From Chryseobacterium gleum (GTDB lineage Bacteria > Bacteroidota > Bacteroidia > Flavobacteriales_D > Crocinitomicaceae): a stretch of DNA of 64,000 bases. The position numbers and the translations under genes are program-made. Positions 34,768 through 44,070 of the stretch are shown one piece after another (the first letter of the stretch is position 1; the number at the start of each line of letters is the position of its first letter). The stretch lies in assembly GCA_945897565.1 (NCBI GenBank), contig CAMDFN010000007.1, positions 34,957-98,956 on the forward strand, written 5' to 3'. The notes under the pieces were generated by a model, which saw only the letters and a program-made list of their open reading frames with translations, had not been told where the DNA came from and searched no databases.

Positions 34768-35052
34768 GATCGCGATGGCCACCTCAAGTCTGCCGATTTC
34801 TTTGACGCAGAAAGCCATCCAGCTTTGACCTTTACCTCTACAGGCATTACAAAAATCAACGACGAAACGCTAGAAATTGCAGGTCACCTCCAGATCAAAG
34901 GGCAAACGCATCCTGTGGTGCTCAAAGCAGCATTTGCTGGCATTGCCGTAGATCCTTACGGCCAAACCAAAGCGGGCATGACGCTTTCTGGCAGCATCAA
35001 AAGAAGCGATGACATCAAGCTTGCTGCCGAACTTCAGTTCATCAAGCAGTAA
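34768..35052 (+). pseudogene. YceI-family protein remnant (5' truncated, probable internal deletion)
   Basis: In-frame reading DRDGHLKSADFFDAESHPALTFTSTGITKIN...IKGQTHPVVLKAAF...DPYGQTKAGMTLSGSIKRSDDIKLAAELQFIKQ; no upstream in-frame N-terminal half. Confidence 0.75.
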
Positions 35053-35512
35053 GCATATTTCGAACCACCTTGAGGGCCTCAGTAATGTGCCCAACAGGGT
35101 TGGTCTGTGAATTGAAAATACCGGCTACTTTTCCGTCGAGCCCAACAACATAAGAGACTCTTCCCGGAAGCAAGCCAAATAAAGAAGCAGGTACGCCAAA
35201 TAATTGGCGTACCTTTTTTTGTGTATCTGACAAAAGCGGGTAGGGCAGTTGATGTTTTTGTTGGAATATTTGGTGCGCATTGCTGGCATCTGAAGAAATG
35301 CCAAAAACTTCACAACCTAGCTCCACAAAATCAGCATAGGCATCTCTAAACGCACAAGCTTCCTTAGTACAACCTGGGGTGTCGTCTTTAGGATAAAAAA
35401 AGAGCACTAAGATCTTTTGCCCAAGGTAATCATCGATGTGAATTTCGTTCCCTTGGCTGTCTGGAAGACTAAACGCGGGGCAGTTGTCTCCGATTTGGAT
35501 GGCTTGGCTCAT
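35042..35512 (-). CDS. bcp: Thioredoxin-dependent peroxiredoxin (Bcp/PrxQ)
   Basis: LVLFFYPKDDTPGCTKEACAFRD. Confidence 0.93.
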   Translation of the reverse strand: MSQAIQIGDNCPAFSLPDSQGNEIHIDDYLGQKILVLFFYPKDDTPGCTKEACAFRDAYADFVELGCEVFGISSDASNAHQIFQQKHQLPYPLLSDTQKKVRQLFGVPASLFGLLPGRVSYVVGLDGKVAGIFNSQTNPVGHITEALKVVRNMLTA

Positions 35513-36807
35513 GGTTGTAAGGCGGTTTTAAATCGATCTAAAACGCGTTCGCGCGCCATTTTATGATCGATAATTGGTTTTGTATATGCAGGTGTTCCGA
35601 ATTCTGGAACCCATTTTTTGATGTATTCAAATTTCGGATCGAATTTCTTTTGCTGCGCTTCTGGGTTGAAGACCCGAAAATACGGCGCGGCGTCACAACC
35701 GCAACCAGCGGCCCACTGCCAGCCGCCCACATTGCTCGCCAACTCAAAATCGAGCAGCTTTTCGGCAAAGTAACGCTCTCCCCAACGCCAATCAATGAGC
35801 AGGTGTTTGGTAAGGAAACTCGCCACCACCATGCGCACACGGTTGTGCATAAAGCCAGTTTCATTGAGTTCGCGCATGCCTGCATCAACTAAAGGATAAC
35901 CCGTTTTACCCTCGCACCAAGCTACAAAATCGGCTTCGTTGTTTTGCCAAACAATGCGGTCGTATTGCGGCTTGAAGGCGTTGTCTGTGGTGGCTGGAAA
36001 ATGAAATATAATGGCTTGATAGAAATCGCGCCAAATGAGTTCGTTGAGGTATTTCTCGTTCAACTGCAGTGCTTTTGTAGCCAAAGCGCGAATAGAAATG
36101 GTGCCAAAACGCAAATGCAAACTGAGTCTGGAGGTGCCTAATACGGCAGGGATATCGCGCTGTTCATGGTACTTCTGAATGATGTTACTTGGGGTTGAGC
36201 GCTCTGGAAAAGGCTGAGTTTTTTGCTCCTCAAAACCCATTTCTTGAAGTGAAATCAGCGCTTCGTTTCGGAATGGATGTAAATTTTGGATATATTTTTC
36301 GGTTGGGTACGCTTTGAAATGGTAGTCGCTAAGTTTTGCTTTCCATTTACGTGCATAAGGCGTATAGATGGTGTAGGGCAAGCCGTCGTCTTTGGTGATT
36401 TCATGTTTTTCAAAAATAACCTGATCCTTTCCCCCCATAAAGTCGATGTTTTCTTTTTTGAGCAACTCAAAAAGAAACTGATCTCTTGCAATGGCATTTG
36501 GTTCGTAATCTCTATTTATGAAGACCGCAGTCACATTCCACTTTTTGGCTAGCTTCGGTATTTCTATTTTCGGATCACCGTAAAGCACTTCTATATCAGC
36601 GCCAAATGAGCGATAGTTTTCCTTGATTTTATTGATTTCTTGGTGGATAAACAACACGCGCTGGTCGTTTTTTGGCAGCAGGTCAAGAATGGTGCTGTCA
36701 AAAACAAATACAGGAATGACTTTCGCACATTGTTTGAGTGCTTTATATAAACCTGCGTTGTCGTTTATCCTGAGGTCTCGGCGATGCCAGAAAAGGGCAG
36801 TACTCAT
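35509..36807 (-). CDS. phr: Deoxyribodipyrimidine photolyase / cryptochrome family
   Basis: LFWHRRDLRINDN, ELIWRDFYQ, MRELNETGFMHNRVRMVVASFL, NVGGWQWAAGCGCDAAPYFRVFNP; start trimmed to MSTALFW. Confidence 0.94.
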   Translation of the reverse strand: MSTALFWHRRDLRINDNAGLYKALKQCAKVIPVFVFDSTILDLLPKNDQRVLFIHQEINKIKENYRSFGADIEVLYGDPKIEIPKLAKKWNVTAVFINRDYEPNAIARDQFLFELLKKENIDFMGGKDQVIFEKHEITKDDGLPYTIYTPYARKWKAKLSDYHFKAYPTEKYIQNLHPFRNEALISLQEMGFEEQKTQPFPERSTPSNIIQKYHEQRDIPAVLGTSRLSLHLRFGTISIRALATKALQLNEKYLNELIWRDFYQAIIFHFPATTDNAFKPQYDRIVWQNNEADFVAWCEGKTGYPLVDAGMRELNETGFMHNRVRMVVASFLTKHLLIDWRWGERYFAEKLLDFELASNVGGWQWAAGCGCDAAPYFRVFNPEAQQKKFDPKFEYIKKWVPEFGTPAYTKPIIDHKMARERVLDRFKTALQP

Positions 36808-37208
36808 TTTCCGTCGTATGCGATGATGTTGTTTTGGGTTTCCCAAAGCTTGAGACTGAGCCCATATTTAGCATCGAGTTTGACGCGCAACAAATTCCAA
36901 ATCACTACGGCAATATTTTCTGCAGTTGGGTTTAGATTGGCAAATTCAGGGCAATCTAGATTGAGGTTGCGGTGGTCAAAACGATCCTGTATTTCTGTTC
37001 CAATAAGGTCTTTGACGAGTTTGAGGTCGATGAGGTAACCCGTTTCAGGGTCAACTTGCCCCTCGATCCATACCTCTAGGGTGTAGTTGTGACCATGAAA
37101 ATTCGGGTTATTGCATTTGCCAAAGATGGCATTGTTTTTTTCATCGGACCAATCGGGTCTATACAAACGGTGCGCCGCATTGAAGGTCGCTCTTCTACAT
37201 ACTTTCAT
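36804..37208 (-). CDS. 6-pyruvoyl-tetrahydropterin synthase / QueD family
   Basis: FNAAHRLY, FGKCNNPNFHGHNYTLEVWIEG, DHRNLN, PTAENIAVVIW. Confidence 0.92.
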   Translation of the reverse strand: MKVCRRATFNAAHRLYRPDWSDEKNNAIFGKCNNPNFHGHNYTLEVWIEGQVDPETGYLIDLKLVKDLIGTEIQDRFDHRNLNLDCPEFANLNPTAENIAVVIWNLLRVKLDAKYGLSLKLWETQNNIIAYDGK

Positions 37209-37731
37209 TTGCTGCTTTTATTATTTTTTCTAGGTGTTGGTCGAGTAAAATTTGAAACCAAACGGTAAATGATTCTCGGTTTTTTTCGAGTTCTTGGATG
37301 AGTTGATCAATGGTGATCCATTTAAAGGAAGCCACTTCATCTGGGTTGATAGTTGGTTTGTCGTTGGTGTAGCCAAATATGACATGATCGAGCTCGTGTT
37401 CGGTGAGCCCTTGGTCTAGTTTCACCTCGTACAAGAAAGAGAAAGCGGGTTTTAATGTTGCGTTTAAGCCCATTTCTTCTTGTAATCTTCTTTTGGCTGC
37501 GGCTGCAATTGTTTCTTCGGGTCTGGGGTGGCTGCAACAAGTGTTGGTCCAAAGCAATGGAGAGTGGTATTTGTGTGTAGCGCGCTGTTGGAGCAATAAT
37601 TCTCCGTTTGAATTGAAAATCAATACAGAAAATGCACGGTGCAAAAGACCTAAGCGATGCGCTTCTATTTTTTCAAGCTGACCAATTTCTCGGTCTTGTT
37701 CATCTACCAAGACAACGTATTCGTCGGGCAT
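37195..37731 (-). CDS. idi: Isopentenyl-diphosphate delta-isomerase (type I, Nudix)
   Basis: HRAFSVLIFNSNGELLLQQRA, WTNTCCSHPRPEE, AAKRRLQEEMG. Confidence 0.94.
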   Translation of the reverse strand: MPDEYVVLVDEQDREIGQLEKIEAHRLGLLHRAFSVLIFNSNGELLLQQRATHKYHSPLLWTNTCCSHPRPEETIAAAAKRRLQEEMGLNATLKPAFSFLYEVKLDQGLTEHELDHVIFGYTNDKPTINPDEVASFKWITIDQLIQELEKNRESFTVWFQILLDQHLEKIIKAANESM

Positions 37732-38567
37732 TAAAGCAAATTTAAATTGTGGCGTACATAGGAGGTGAGTAAAATGCGCATTTTGCGATAATTGGGGATG
37801 CGAATGCGCTCGTTGAGTACTTTTTCTGCAGGTGTTTGCTTGATCTTATTGAAGAGCTTGAAGTAATATTTGTAGGCCATATAGACCCCAAAACGCGCTT
37901 TTTTTGGCAACAATAAAATGCCTTCATAACCTTTCTGGAAGTCGAGTGCGATATCTGCTTCAATTTCTTTTTTAATGGCACTATTGAAGTCTGATAGATT
38001 GATCCCTGGAAAGTAAGTTCTGCCCAATTCTTGGTAATCTGCTTTGAGGTCTCGTAAAAAGTTAATTTTTTGAAAAGCAGCGCCAAGTTTCATGGCATAG
38101 GGCTTCAATTCTTCGTATGTTTTTTGATCTCCTTCTACAAAAACCTTCAAACACATCAGGCCAACGACCTCTGCAGAACCTAAAATATAGGTTTCGTACT
38201 TGCCTTGATCGAAGGTTTGTTGTTGCAAATCCATTTCCATGGAGTCTAGGAAGGTGTCGATGAGTTCCATTGGAATTTGGTACTTATTGACAGCCCATTG
38301 AAAGCTGTGGAGTATTGGGTTGAGTGAAATGCCCGCTGCAATGGCCTCGTAAGTTTGGGTCTTGAAATCTTGGAGAAGCTTTGCTTTATCATAACCATGA
38401 AAGGTATCGACGATTTCATCGGCGAAGCGCACAAATCCATAGATGGAATAGATGGCTTGTTGTAATTCCTTGTGCAAAAAACTAATACCCAAAGAAAAAG
38501 AGGTGCTGTACCTTTTGGTGGTAAGCTCGCTCATTTCTTGACATACGTTGTCGAATAATGCTTTCAT
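37731..38567 (-). CDS. crtB: Phytoene/squalene synthase
   Basis: YGFVRFADEIVDTF, GSAEVVGLMCL, AFQKINFLRDLKAD. Confidence 0.93.
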   Translation of the reverse strand: MKALFDNVCQEMSELTTKRYSTSFSLGISFLHKELQQAIYSIYGFVRFADEIVDTFHGYDKAKLLQDFKTQTYEAIAAGISLNPILHSFQWAVNKYQIPMELIDTFLDSMEMDLQQQTFDQGKYETYILGSAEVVGLMCLKVFVEGDQKTYEELKPYAMKLGAAFQKINFLRDLKADYQELGRTYFPGINLSDFNSAIKKEIEADIALDFQKGYEGILLLPKKARFGVYMAYKYYFKLFNKIKQTPAEKVLNERIRIPNYRKMRILLTSYVRHNLNLL

Positions 38568-38576
38568 AGAATAGGT

Positions 38577-40046
38577 TTATTGGTGCTTAGCGATGATATG
38601 TTTAGCGACAACTTCGCCAGAAACAATAGAAGGAGGAACGCCAGGACCTGGTACCGTAAGCTGACCTGTATAGTAGAGGTTTTTTATTTTTTTATGTTGC
38701 ATGCGCGGCTTTAATATAGCCGTTTGAAGCAAGGTGTTGGCCAAGCCATATGCATTTCCTTTAAAGGCGTTGTAGTCGCTTTTGAAATCGGCAACACAAA
38801 AACTTCTTTTGTAAACGATGTGGTCTTTGATGTCGTTCCCGGTTAAATCCTTGAGCCTTTTGACTAAAATATCGAAGTATTTGTCGCGCGTGGCTTCGTC
38901 GTCTTTGAGGTCGGGGGCCAAGGGAATCAAAAAGAATAAGTTTTCTGATCCCTCGGGCGCAACAGATGGGTCTGTCATGGAAGGCGCACTCAGGTAAAAA
39001 AGAGGTTTTTCAGGCCAACTTGGATCTTTGTAGATGGTTTTACCGTGTTCTGTTAATGATTCATCAAAGAAGAGGTTGTGGTGCTCTAAATTGTTGAGTT
39101 TTTTATTGACACCCACATAAAACAAAAGGCTAGATGGTGCCATCGTGCGTTTGTCCCAGTAGGCATTGGAATAGTTGGCGTTTTCTTTGAGGAGTTGTTG
39201 GTCTGTATGGGCGTAATCTGCACCAGAAATAACGATGTCAGCAGCATGAAAAACTCCATTTACAATGGTCCCAGTTGCTTTGCCGTTTTCAAGCACAATG
39301 CGTTCCACATTGGCTGAGGTTTCTATCTTGACACCTTGTTCTTGGGCAATGCGTGCAAAGGCCTTGATGAATTCGTGCATACCGTTCATCGGGTACCAGG
39401 TACCAAGTTGGATATCGGCGTAGTTCATCAGAGAATAAAGCGCAGGTGTTTCGTTGGGCATGGCGCCTAAGAATAACACTGGAAACTCTAGCAATGATAG
39501 TATTTTAGGGTGCTTGAAATATTTGCGGATGAAGCTCGAAAAAGAGGAGAAAAGGTGCATCTTGAAGAGCCCACCGAGCACGCGGCTGTCAAAAAACTCG
39601 GTTAAACTAAGACTGGGTTTGTAGACGAGGTCTTCCATGCCTACTTTGTATTTGTAGGCGGCATCTTTTAAAAAGGCTTGAAGTTGTAGGGCGCTTCCGG
39701 GCTCTAAAGATTCAAACCACTCTTCGAGTTGCGGCATCTGAGCCGGTACGTTGGTATAGCTGTGATCTGGCCAATAAACGCGGTACGATGGGTCTAGGCG
39801 CTTGAGTTCATAGAAATCAGCGGTGGTGTAGCCAAATTGCTGATAAAATTTTTCGAAGACATCTGGCATCCAGTACCATGAGGGGCCCATGTCAAAAACA
39901 AAACCTTGTGTTTCAAACTGACGCGCTCTTCCACCGATGGTTGGGTTTTTTTCAAAAATTTGAACGTCATAGCCTGCTTTTGCAAGAAATGAAGCTGCGG
40001 AGAGGCTCGAAATACCCGAGCCAATTACGTGAACTTTTTTTGTCAT
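38577..40046 (-). CDS. crtI: Phytoene desaturase
   Basis: VIGSGISSLSAASFLAKAGYDVQIFEKNPTIGGRA; C-terminal NLYYTGQLTVPGPGVPPSIVSGEVVA. Confidence 0.94.
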   Translation of the reverse strand: MTKKVHVIGSGISSLSAASFLAKAGYDVQIFEKNPTIGGRARQFETQGFVFDMGPSWYWMPDVFEKFYQQFGYTTADFYELKRLDPSYRVYWPDHSYTNVPAQMPQLEEWFESLEPGSALQLQAFLKDAAYKYKVGMEDLVYKPSLSLTEFFDSRVLGGLFKMHLFSSFSSFIRKYFKHPKILSLLEFPVLFLGAMPNETPALYSLMNYADIQLGTWYPMNGMHEFIKAFARIAQEQGVKIETSANVERIVLENGKATGTIVNGVFHAADIVISGADYAHTDQQLLKENANYSNAYWDKRTMAPSSLLFYVGVNKKLNNLEHHNLFFDESLTEHGKTIYKDPSWPEKPLFYLSAPSMTDPSVAPEGSENLFFLIPLAPDLKDDEATRDKYFDILVKRLKDLTGNDIKDHIVYKRSFCVADFKSDYNAFKGNAYGLANTLLQTAILKPRMQHKKIKNLYYTGQLTVPGPGVPPSIVSGEVVAKHIIAKHQ

Positions 40047-40049
40047 AAA

Positions 40050-40562
40050 TTAATTTGCTGAAAAAGCGAATTCCGGTAAAGCTTCCATCAGCTTTTTTCT
40101 GGCGATGAAAATCCGGCTTTTCACTGTTCCGATTGGAATACCGAGTTTGTCTGCGATTTCTTTGTATTTGAACCCTTCAAAATGCATTTCAAAAGGGGTC
40201 TGATACTCTTCTCCTAATAAGTTAATTTGTCTGTTGATGTCTTTGACACCAATTTTCTCAATTGCGCTGTCTTCATGGCTATGGATGTTCCCGACCAAGA
40301 AAACTTCTTTACTGTGGTCAAAGATGGCACCCGATTTTACTTTTCTACGGTATTGATTAATGAACAAGTTACGCATAATTGTGAAAACCCAAGCCTTAAA
40401 ATTGGTTTGTGGGGTGTAATAACTGCGGTACGTAATTGCTTTTAGCATGGTCTCTTGGGTCAAATCCCTTGCATCTTCTCGGTTTCGAGTAAAAGACAAG
40501 GCAAATGATTGTAGGTTATTTTCTAGACCGATTAATGCTTCATTGAATTCGATTGTCGACAT
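40050..40562 (-). CDS. ECF-type RNA polymerase sigma factor
   Basis: NREDARDLTQETMLKA, FKAWVFTIMRNLFINQYRR, FKYKEIADKLGIPIGTVKSRIFIARKKL. Confidence 0.93.
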   Translation of the reverse strand: MSTIEFNEALIGLENNLQSFALSFTRNREDARDLTQETMLKAITYRSYYTPQTNFKAWVFTIMRNLFINQYRRKVKSGAIFDHSKEVFLVGNIHSHEDSAIEKIGVKDINRQINLLGEEYQTPFEMHFEGFKYKEIADKLGIPIGTVKSRIFIARKKLMEALPEFAFSAN

Positions 40563-40573
40563 GGCTTTTAATT

Positions 40574-40640
40574 TTGTTTAACAATTGCGAGATAAAGTTA
40601 AACATAAATTGTTTAACAAAACAAGAAAAAGTTTAAACAA
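40574..40640. promoter_or_regulatory. Cluster of four TGTTTAAC-like boxes upstream of the sigma/crt block
   Basis: TTGTTTAACAA (40574-40584), GTTAAACA (40597-40604), TTGTTTAACAA (40609-40619), GTTTAAACA (40631-40639). Confidence 0.55.
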
Positions 40641-40680
40641 AACAATAAATTTTTTACATTATTCTTGTGGAAAAAAGCTA

Positions 40681-41712: not shown

Positions 41713-42870
41713 ATGTCTTTTTACCACAAGCTCGGACAAATTCCGCACAAACGACACACCGTTTTTCGCCAGCCAGACGGCGCAATATACCACGAACAAC
41801 TCTTTGGTACCATTGGCTTTGACGGCATGTCTTCCTTGTTATACCATATCCAGCCACCAACGGTTGTCAAGTCTATCGGTGCTCAAACCAATATTGCGCC
41901 CGAAATTGGCATTCAAAAAAACATGATGATGCGCAGTTTCAGAGGTTTTGACCTCAAACCAGCTGCCGATTATGTAGAGAGCAGGGTTCCGGTATTGGTC
42001 AATTCAGATGTCTATCTCGAGCTTGCCGCGCCTTCCCAAAGCATGAAGGATTATTTCTATAAAAATGCCGACGCCGACGAAATTATATTTATCCACAAAG
42101 GTGCTGGCAAGTTGCGCACCCAAATGGGCAACATCGATTTTGCCTACGGCGACTACCTCGTCATTCCACGTGGCATGATTTACCAATTGGAATTCAATGA
42201 TGAAAACAACCGTTTATTCATCATCCAATCTTTTCATCCGGTCTATACACCCAAGCGCTACCGCAATTGGTTTGGTCAGCTTTTAGAGCACTCTCCATAT
42301 TGCGAGCGCGATATCCGCCCACCGCACGAACTCGAAACGCACAACGAAGAAGGCGATTTTCTGATCCGCATCAAAAAACAAGATGTCTTATACGACTACA
42401 CTTATGCGCATCACCCGTTCAATGTAGTAGGTTGGGATGGCTATAATTATCCGTATGCTTTTTCTATCCACGATTTTGAACCCATCACAGGCCGCGTGCA
42501 CCAACCGCCACCGGTTCACCAAACTTTCGAAACCGCTGCCTTTGCGGTGTGTTCGTTTGTACCGCGCTTATACGACTACCATCCAGACGCCATTCCATCG
42601 CCTTACAACCACTCCAACATCGATTCAGATGAGGTGTTATATTATGTAGACGGTGATTTCATGAGCCGCAACCATATCGAAAAAGGCCAAATTACCTTGC
42701 ATCCGGCAGGCATTCCACACGGCCCACACCCCGGTGCCTATGAACGCAGTATCGGAAAGACAGCAACCGAAGAATTGGCCGTTATGGTCGATACCTTCAA
42801 GCCGCTCTCGCTCACCAAGCGCGCTTTGGAGATGGAATTGCCAGACTACATGTTCTCTTGGCAGCACTAA
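41713..42870 (+). CDS. hmgA: Homogentisate 1,2-dioxygenase
   Basis: HRQPDGAIYHEQLFGTIGF-like start; NVVGWDGYNYPYAFSIHDFEPITGRVHQPPPVHQTFE; DEVLYYVDGDFMSR. Confidence 0.93.
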   Translation: MSFYHKLGQIPHKRHTVFRQPDGAIYHEQLFGTIGFDGMSSLLYHIQPPTVVKSIGAQTNIAPEIGIQKNMMMRSFRGFDLKPAADYVESRVPVLVNSDVYLELAAPSQSMKDYFYKNADADEIIFIHKGAGKLRTQMGNIDFAYGDYLVIPRGMIYQLEFNDENNRLFIIQSFHPVYTPKRYRNWFGQLLEHSPYCERDIRPPHELETHNEEGDFLIRIKKQDVLYDYTYAHHPFNVVGWDGYNYPYAFSIHDFEPITGRVHQPPPVHQTFETAAFAVCSFVPRLYDYHPDAIPSPYNHSNIDSDEVLYYVDGDFMSRNHIEKGQITLHPAGIPHGPHPGAYERSIGKTATEELAVMVDTFKPLSLTKRALEMELPDYMFSWQH

Positions 42871-42909: not shown

Positions 42910-44070
42910 ATGGCTGAGATCAAAAACCTACAAGATATCCAAAACTACGACTACAGTCTGGAGAAAATATTCCACGATGCCGAAGATTTCCTTCCACTTT
43001 TAGGTACAGATTACGTCGAGCTTTATGTCGGCAATGCCAAACAAAGCGCACATTATTACAAAACAGCATTTGGTTTCCAATCGGAAGCTTATGCAGGGCT
43101 CGAGACCGGCGTCAAAGACCGCGTTTCTTATGTGCTCAAACAAGATAAAATCCGTTTGGTCCTCACAACGCCTTTAACAGAAGGTGGCGAGCTCAATGCA
43201 CACATCAATAAACATGGCGACGGCGTAAAAGTGGTTGCCCTCTGGGTAGAAGATGCCACTAAAGCATTTGAAGAAACCACCAAACGAGGCGCGAAGCCTT
43301 ACATGGAGCCCACCCGAGAAGAAGACCAAAATGGTTGGGTAGTGCGCTCAGGTATCTACACCTACGGCGAAACCGTCCATATTTTTGTGGAGCGCAAAAA
43401 CTACAACGGCATTTTCTTGCCGGGCTACAAAAAATGGGAATCGCATTACAACCCTGCTGATGTGGGCCTTAAATTCATCGACCACATGGTGGGCAATGTA
43501 GGCTGGAATGAAATGAACGACTGGGTTGAGTTCTACGGAAAAGTCATGGGTTTTGCCCAAATTGTTTCTTTCGATGACAACGACATCTCCACAGACTACA
43601 CCGCTTTAATGTCTAAAGTGATGTCCAACGGCAATGGCCGCATCAAATTTCCAATCAACGAGCCGGCAGAAGGCAAGAAGAAATCTCAAATCGAAGAATA
43701 CATCGACTTTTACAATGGCCCGGGTGTGCAGCACATCGCTGTTGCCACTAACAATATCGTAGAAACCGTATCTGCCATGCGTGACCGCGGTGTTGAGTTT
43801 TTGTATGTACCAGAAACCTATTACGAAGATTTATTAGAGCGCGTGGGTCAGATTGACGAAGACATCGAACTTCTGAAGTCTCATGGTATTCTCATTGACC
43901 GCGACGAAGAAGGATATTTGCTGCAGTTATTCACCAAACCGGTTGTGGATCGCCCAACTTTGTTCTTTGAAATCATTCAAAGAAAAGGTGCACAATCTTT
44001 CGGTAAGGGTAATTTCAAGGCATTATTTGAAGCCATTGAGCGCGAGCAAGAAAACCGCGGCACCCTTTAA
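42910..44070 (+). CDS. hppD: 4-hydroxyphenylpyruvate dioxygenase
   Basis: GVQHIAVATNNIVETV, FLYVPETYYEDL, GYLLQLFTKPVVDRPTLFFEIIQRKG. Confidence 0.95.
   Translation: MAEIKNLQDIQNYDYSLEKIFHDAEDFLPLLGTDYVELYVGNAKQSAHYYKTAFGFQSEAYAGLETGVKDRVSYVLKQDKIRLVLTTPLTEGGELNAHINKHGDGVKVVALWVEDATKAFEETTKRGAKPYMEPTREEDQNGWVVRSGIYTYGETVHIFVERKNYNGIFLPGYKKWESHYNPADVGLKFIDHMVGNVGWNEMNDWVEFYGKVMGFAQIVSFDDNDISTDYTALMSKVMSNGNGRIKFPINEPAEGKKKSQIEEYIDFYNGPGVQHIAVATNNIVETVSAMRDRGVEFLYVPETYYEDLLERVGQIDEDIELLKSHGILIDRDEEGYLLQLFTKPVVDRPTLFFEIIQRKGAQSFGKGNFKALFEAIEREQENRGTL

Follow-up and report, generated by a model that had tools for sequence, protein, structure and literature searches.

Pigmented Bacteroidota abound in surface waters, and the manner in which their pigment genes are controlled is the question raised by the locus described here. 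Light induction of carotenoids is reported for at least one of them, Chryseobacterium lacus (PMC7064467). In the window, by which we mean the whole 64,000-nucleotide stretch of DNA that was analysed, from a freshwater bacterium, a gene for an ECF-type sigma factor heads a run that continues through crtI, crtB, an idi-like gene and the genes for a 6-pyruvoyl-tetrahydropterin synthase family protein (PTPS), a DNA photolyase and a peroxiredoxin, with intergenic gaps or overlaps of only a few bases throughout (Table 1). The CrtI subfamily name of the desaturase is one that we take from established knowledge. Beside this operon, on the plus strand, lie a homogentisate 1,2-dioxygenase-like gene (41713-42870; Pfam HgmA_N) and, by sequence look, a 4-hydroxyphenylpyruvate dioxygenase-like gene (42910-44070), which together form a tyrosine-degradation pair.

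The start codon of the sigma gene (40562, minus strand) is separated from the end of an epimerase gene (40681) by a gap of 118 bp (40563-40680). The original prediction for this gap had marked four short boxes and had offered two readings of them, an operator array for an unlinked dimeric regulator or an autoregulatory site of the sigma factor. All four boxes are present where it had placed them. What, then, is the unit that these boxes form, which protein would read it, and to what end?

Table 1. Window coordinates of the boxes, the candidate promoter elements and the genes of the operon
Feature	Position	Strand	Basis or context
Box TTGTTTAACAA	40574-40584 and 40609-40619		gap upstream of sigma gene
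Box GTTAAACA	40597-40604		gap upstream of sigma gene
Box GTTTAAACA	40631-40639		gap upstream of sigma gene
Putative distal operator pair TGTTTAA-N16-TTAAACA (box 1 + box 2, gene orientation)	40610-40639	minus	overlaps candidate -33 element
Putative proximal operator pair TGTTTAA-N16-TTAAACA (box 3 + box 4, gene orientation)	40575-40604	minus	overlaps -7-like element and sigma 5' leader
Candidate sigma-A -7 element TAACTTTA	40593-40600	minus	consensus TAnnTTTG; fused with box 3
Candidate -33 element TTTTG	40617-40621	minus	overlaps box 2; sequence and inference
ECF-type sigma factor, first gene of operon	40050-40562	minus	Pfam Sigma70_r2, Sigma70_r4_2
CrtI-type phytoene desaturase	38577-40046	minus	Pfam Amino_oxidase/NAD_binding_8; next to crtB
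CrtB phytoene synthase	37731-38567	minus	Pfam SQS_PSY
Idi-like NUDIX isopentenyl-diphosphate isomerase	37195-37731	minus	Pfam NUDIX and context
PTPS family protein	36804-37208	minus	Pfam PTPS
DNA photolyase	35509-36813	minus	Pfam DNA_photolyase, FAD_binding_7
Bcp-type peroxiredoxin, final gene of run	35042-35512	minus	Pfam AhpC-TSA

Geometry, rarity and conservation of the boxes

Read in gene orientation, the boxes follow one another as TGTTTAA, TTAAACA, TGTTTAA and TTAAACA, that is, as two inverted pairs TGTTTAA-N16-TTAAACA of 30 bp each, set 5 bp apart in an array of 65 bp (40575-40639). Across the whole 2.24-Mb genome, TGTTTAA-N12..N19-TTAAACA occurs in two places only, both of them here and both at N16. 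Allowing one mismatch at N16 adds no further place, whereas a reversed-pattern control gives five, and the inner motif TTAAACA-N3..7-TGTTTAA has a single occurrence in the genome, which is this array. A genome-wide count of the single box, the check that the original prediction had put forward, was negative, with 9 places for the palindrome TTGTTNAACAA against 11 for the reversed-pattern control, and TGTTTAAC stands at chance level in the window (3 found, 3.05 expected). With the single palindrome at chance and the pair nearly unique, the pair is the informative unit. The worry that AT-rich DNA throws up such boxes by chance is not borne out once the pair is followed: it is unique to this gap in the genome rather than equally common in other AT-rich DNA, and among orthologues it is kept upstream of every crt-sigma locus examined.

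Orthologous sigma genes were gathered from relatives by protein similarity and yielded 109 upstream regions, 82 of them distinct and long enough; the sigma proteins of these 82 loci are 67-99% identical and the loci share descent, so the counts that follow are not independent. The four-box array stands in the same order in all 82; no box has more than one mismatch, and 61 loci have none at all. The spacer of the distal pair is N16 in 82 of 82 and that of the proximal pair N16 in 65 and N17 in 17, while the gap that separates the two pairs differs by 2 bp among loci. The box cores reach nearly 2 bits of information, as against a mean of 0.27 bits over 40 columns upstream; the flanking DNA diverges, and no other signal in the DNA upstream of sigma can be aligned. 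Mononucleotide shuffles of the same sequences produced the array in 2 of 4100 cases. The predicted array is real, but its unit is not the 11-bp palindrome TTGTTNAACAA, the outer bases of which differ among relatives; what is kept is the 30-bp pair of 7-bp half-sites. We read the four boxes as two copies of one conserved 30-bp site, not as AT-rich noise. Several MAG contigs (L063, L070, L085, L087, L095 and others) bear organism names (Sphingomonadales, Polynucleobacter, Chitinophaga pinensis, Chryseobacterium gleum) at odds with their Flavobacteriales-group sigma-crt locus, and their record titles look mislabelled.

The array also appears to overlap a promoter. The -7-like element conforms to the consensus of the Flavobacterium sigma-A -7 box (PMC9723704); its last base is A or G among relatives, and the CTTT that follows box 3 is nearly invariant. 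Between this element and the candidate -33 element lie 16 nt, on the short side for a spacer, so that the -33 assignment and the placement of the promoter are tentative. An E. coli-type promoter scan is not informative for this phylum. So placed, the distal pair would cover the -33 region, and the proximal pair both the leader and the -7 box, a position that fits a repressor.

The same half-sites, being inverted repeats, could in principle act at the RNA level as the arms of a hairpin in the leader. If box 3 holds the -7 element, however, box 4 would be alone in the transcript, and 13 of 15 middle-base departures from the consensus fall on one arm only, with 1 complementary. The arms thus change independently, and the hairpin, to which we assign next to no probability, was rejected.

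The pair and its neighbours outside the genus

In each of eleven genomes from other families, picked by the presence of the sigma protein and not by motif, one or more copies of TGTTNAA-N16-TTNAACA lie in the 200 bp that precede the sigma gene, and the neighbouring spacings N4-N15 and N17-N32 give zero pairs upstream of sigma in these 11. The spacing is N16 in 35 of 38 sigma or crtI upstream regions of a broader set, partly motif-chosen. Outside the genus, the distance between successive pairs is not conserved, and several loci have a single pair. Since N16 is fixed while the spacing between pairs varies and some loci have only one, the 30-bp inverted pair would therefore be the functional unit. 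A dimer site composed of box 2 and box 3, after the manner of a MerR-like dyad (R-N3..5-F), was considered and discarded: its spacing varies in the genus and widely outside it, whereas F-N16-R is fixed.

Directly upstream of sigma and in the same direction, 10 of the 11 other-family genomes have a gene for a MerR-type protein with B12-binding domains (merR-B12), with the pair in the gap between the two genes; in the window's genus merR-B12 and sigma are unlinked. In an order-wide sample, 12 of the 24 merR-bearing genomes among those listed have merR and a pair no more than 300 bp apart, where the chance of such proximity is about 0.1% per genome, as estimated from some three pairs per 3.5-Mb genome. 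A perfect pair is found in none of the five merR-less genomes among those listed in this sample. Over the class, 18 of 30 pair loci adjoin merR, sigma, crtI, photolyase or PTPS, and further class loci have a second pair before PTPS (L203) or before sigma-photolyase (L212). Judged by what these genes appear to encode, the theme common to the pair-associated genes is protection from light.

These neighbourhoods bear directly on the second of the two original suggestions, namely, that through the boxes the ECF sigma factor regulates its own gene, and on the related reading of the boxes as its promoter. Copies in the window and its genus do stand only upstream of sigma. Elsewhere in the class, sigma-less loci contradict the suggestion: the gene order is merR, pair, crtI, crtB in L180 and L185 and pair, merR, crtI, crtB in L181, with sigma absent from each, and in L207, L208 and L228 the pair is found at merR-crtI, likewise without sigma. 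Four inverted half-sites at N16 are, moreover, unlike a -35/-10 pair. We regard a sigma site as extremely improbable; to judge from gene order, the boxes go with merR and crt, not with sigma.

A further consideration is whether some other unlinked transcription factor occupies the array, merR-B12 being merely an operon neighbour in other families. Its unlinked position in the window's genus would accord with this, as would G004, a genome of the same genus, 93% complete, that has the array and sigma and no merR-B12 match, either because the regulator has been lost or because the assembly has a gap there. Yet the pair and merR adjoin across many families, including at loci that share only merR and crtI; the pair precedes merR itself in L169, L181, L207, L208 and L228; and inverted repeats are what MerR-type dimers bind. 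Another factor is very unlikely on these grounds.

Pairs were also seen at other positions. At L201 and L205 one stands on each side of the sigma gene, the second preceding a photolyase gene. Three genomes from one genus of another family have a conserved perfect pair (L187:3272-3301, L188:3756-3785, L191:2896-2925) that an RpoD-type sigma gene follows after approximately 215-230 bp; merR-B12 is present in them, in two beside crtI without a crt-type sigma, and in this genus a second sigma factor, of the primary type, may be under the control of the same switch. A perfect pair lies beside a TonB-dependent receptor gene (L193:4154-4183) and is matched by a site in another genome of that genus (L194:2016-2045), and in one genome another lies 36 bp upstream of a gene for a fasciclin-domain protein (L196:3650-3679). 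The receptor and fasciclin-domain genes are possible further members of the regulon.

A candidate regulator with two B12-binding domains

There is good support for the first of the original suggestions, that the boxes are the operator array of an unlinked regulator: a CarH/LitR-type candidate is encoded on another contig of the same genome. Three MerR-type proteins are encoded there, one of which has both B12-binding domains. Its single-copy gene (C2:38110-38976) lies between leuS and engB-like genes and specifies a protein of 289 aa with the Pfam domains PF13411 (MerR HTH), PF02607 (B12-binding_2) and PF02310 (B12-binding), the last of which falls slightly under its curated cut-off in the 289-aa protein and above the cut-off in the genome search. 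The closest solved relatives are the Thermus thermophilus CarH structures 5c8d and 3whp (phmmer E about 8e-20). A PduO-type adenosyltransferase, which could supply AdoCbl, is encoded in the genome, as are other B12-domain proteins.

Among 63 homologue rows, the AdoCbl-contact residues G128, E141, H177, G199 and P203 are present in every one, W131 in 62 and H142 in 61. From the light-response signature published for AdoCbl photoreceptors, GxxW, EH, GxxH and GxxxP (PMC11796333), this genome's protein has the first, second and fourth motifs in full and GxxH in part, with H177 kept and the Gly replaced by His. That Gly (position 174) is His in 31 of the 63 rows and His, Asn or other in most. His132 is found in none of the 63, which have L, Q, S, T, M, A or G instead (Leu in this genome). 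In Thermus CarH, His132 serves as the second axial cobalt ligand after illumination, and the H132A variant is reported to be unable to monomerise in light; CtMerR, with Arg at 132, nonetheless passes from tetramer to monomer in light, and the position is reported to be variable among confirmed photoreceptors, hence no strict criterion for the family (PMC11796333). Light release by the MerR-B12 protein appears likely; with His132 absent from the homologues, its photochemistry may differ in detail from that of Thermus CarH.

Alternatively, the protein could regulate these genes without being a direct light switch, as a sensor of B12 status, a relay from a partner photoreceptor, or an activator. 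The absence of His132 and the replacement of Gly at position 174 in most homologues point in this direction, and there are precedents in a class II LitR of Pseudomonas mendocina that is under the control of a LOV protein (PMC9758184) and in Streptomyces LitR, which is said to promote the transcription of litS (PMC12705666). An indirect or activating role is nevertheless rather unlikely, given the near-invariance of the other AdoCbl-contact residues, the behaviour of CtMerR, the photoprotective character of the targets, and sites that overlap the promoter as they would for a repressor.

The merR-B12 promoter of the window's genus (L137-L166) carries a different dyad, GAACAA-N13-TTGTT, at exactly N13 in 25 of 30 genomes. 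Autoregulation through a site of different geometry is one candidate reading of this dyad, and a site of another regulator is the other.

Known operators and the proposed light switch

Class I LitR, exemplified by CarH of Thermus thermophilus and Bacillus megaterium, shares with the present system the MerR and both B12-binding domains, the residues W131, E141, H142 and H177 together with GxxxP, crt genes as targets (putatively so here), an operator over the promoter, and a half-site, TAAACA, that fits the TnnACA core. The CarH operator, however, is built from 11-bp direct repeats in tandem, three or four in number, in contrast to inverted pairs at N16. By inspection, no register of the repeat nnnnTnnACAn fits the array, in which TnnACA half-sites alternate in orientation at N16, and the array does not match the CarH direct-repeat type. 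Also different here are the missing His132, a regulator gene that is unlinked in the window's genus, and an ECF sigma gene at the head of the target operon.

The nearest known arrangement is the Myxococcus xanthus CarA/CarH operator at Pcrt, which is about 55 bp long and consists of two inverted repeats for two dimers (PMC9304148). The array resembles it in having two inverted repeats, in its comparable length (65 bp), in its promoter overlap, the pairs extending over the -7-like element, and in its proximity to carotenoid genes. The Myxococcus operator, bound cooperatively by the two dimers, differs in sequence and spacing, and the regulator is single-copy here.

Class II LitR of Pseudomonas (PplR1, PmlR2) likewise employs a pair of inverted sites, of which the first covers the -35 region and the second lies between the start site and the start codon, and its targets include photolyase and the pterin gene folE (PMC9758184), a parallel to the PTPS and photolyase genes of the present operon. 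Its site, TGTACA-N12-TGTACA, has hexamer centres 18 bp apart, compared to 24 here, where N16 separates the 7-mers (N18 between hexamers) around another core, and the array is accordingly not a class II site. These regulators are without the second B12 domain and work with a LOV protein, whereas the MerR-B12 protein has both B12 domains. In the LitR-LitS system of Streptomyces coelicolor, a B12-type LitR controls an ECF sigma factor that is tied to carotenoid genes, an arrangement that may have its counterpart here, where the operator precedes sigma and merR adjoins sigma in relatives. There the sigma factor acts on the crtE promoter and an activating role is ascribed to LitR, whereas here sigma and crt share one operon and repression is proposed. 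In the literature searched, which included few subscription journals, neither the present operator nor any Bacteroidota CarH/LitR operator is described, and a prior description is possible.

In our judgement, the array is probably the operator of an unlinked repressor of the CarH/LitR type, one that represses the operon in the dark with AdoCbl and is released by light. Each 30-bp inverted pair would constitute one binding unit, probably for one dimer, and two such units side by side over the promoter would allow the bound protein to block RNA polymerase. In the dark, AdoCbl-bound MerR-B12 dimers on both pairs would repress the entire operon from sigma through peroxiredoxin. In light, the Co-C bond would break, binding would weaken and RNA polymerase would enter, switching on carotenoids, photolyase and sigma, and the sigma factor may in turn extend the response to genes elsewhere.

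More tentative, and in our estimate somewhat short of an even chance, is the broader proposal that the Bacteroidota harbour a branch of CarH/LitR in which dimers bind TGTTTAA-N16-TTAAACA, the bis-His ligand is absent, and photolysis is coupled to release in a manner unlike that of Thermus CarH. Through much of the class, such a branch would serve as the shared master switch for the genes of carotenoids, photolyase and sigma; in some genera an rpoD paralogue would come under it as well.

A candidate regulator, its exact putative site and its targets across many families have been named here from sequence alone, and the question of pigment control can now be put to the test with one protein and a 65-bp probe. 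The pair can also be used to search uncultured genomes for the light regulon. An intact AdoCbl pocket, combined with the lack of His132 across the homologues, would furthermore offer a natural test of how photochemistry is coupled to the release of DNA.
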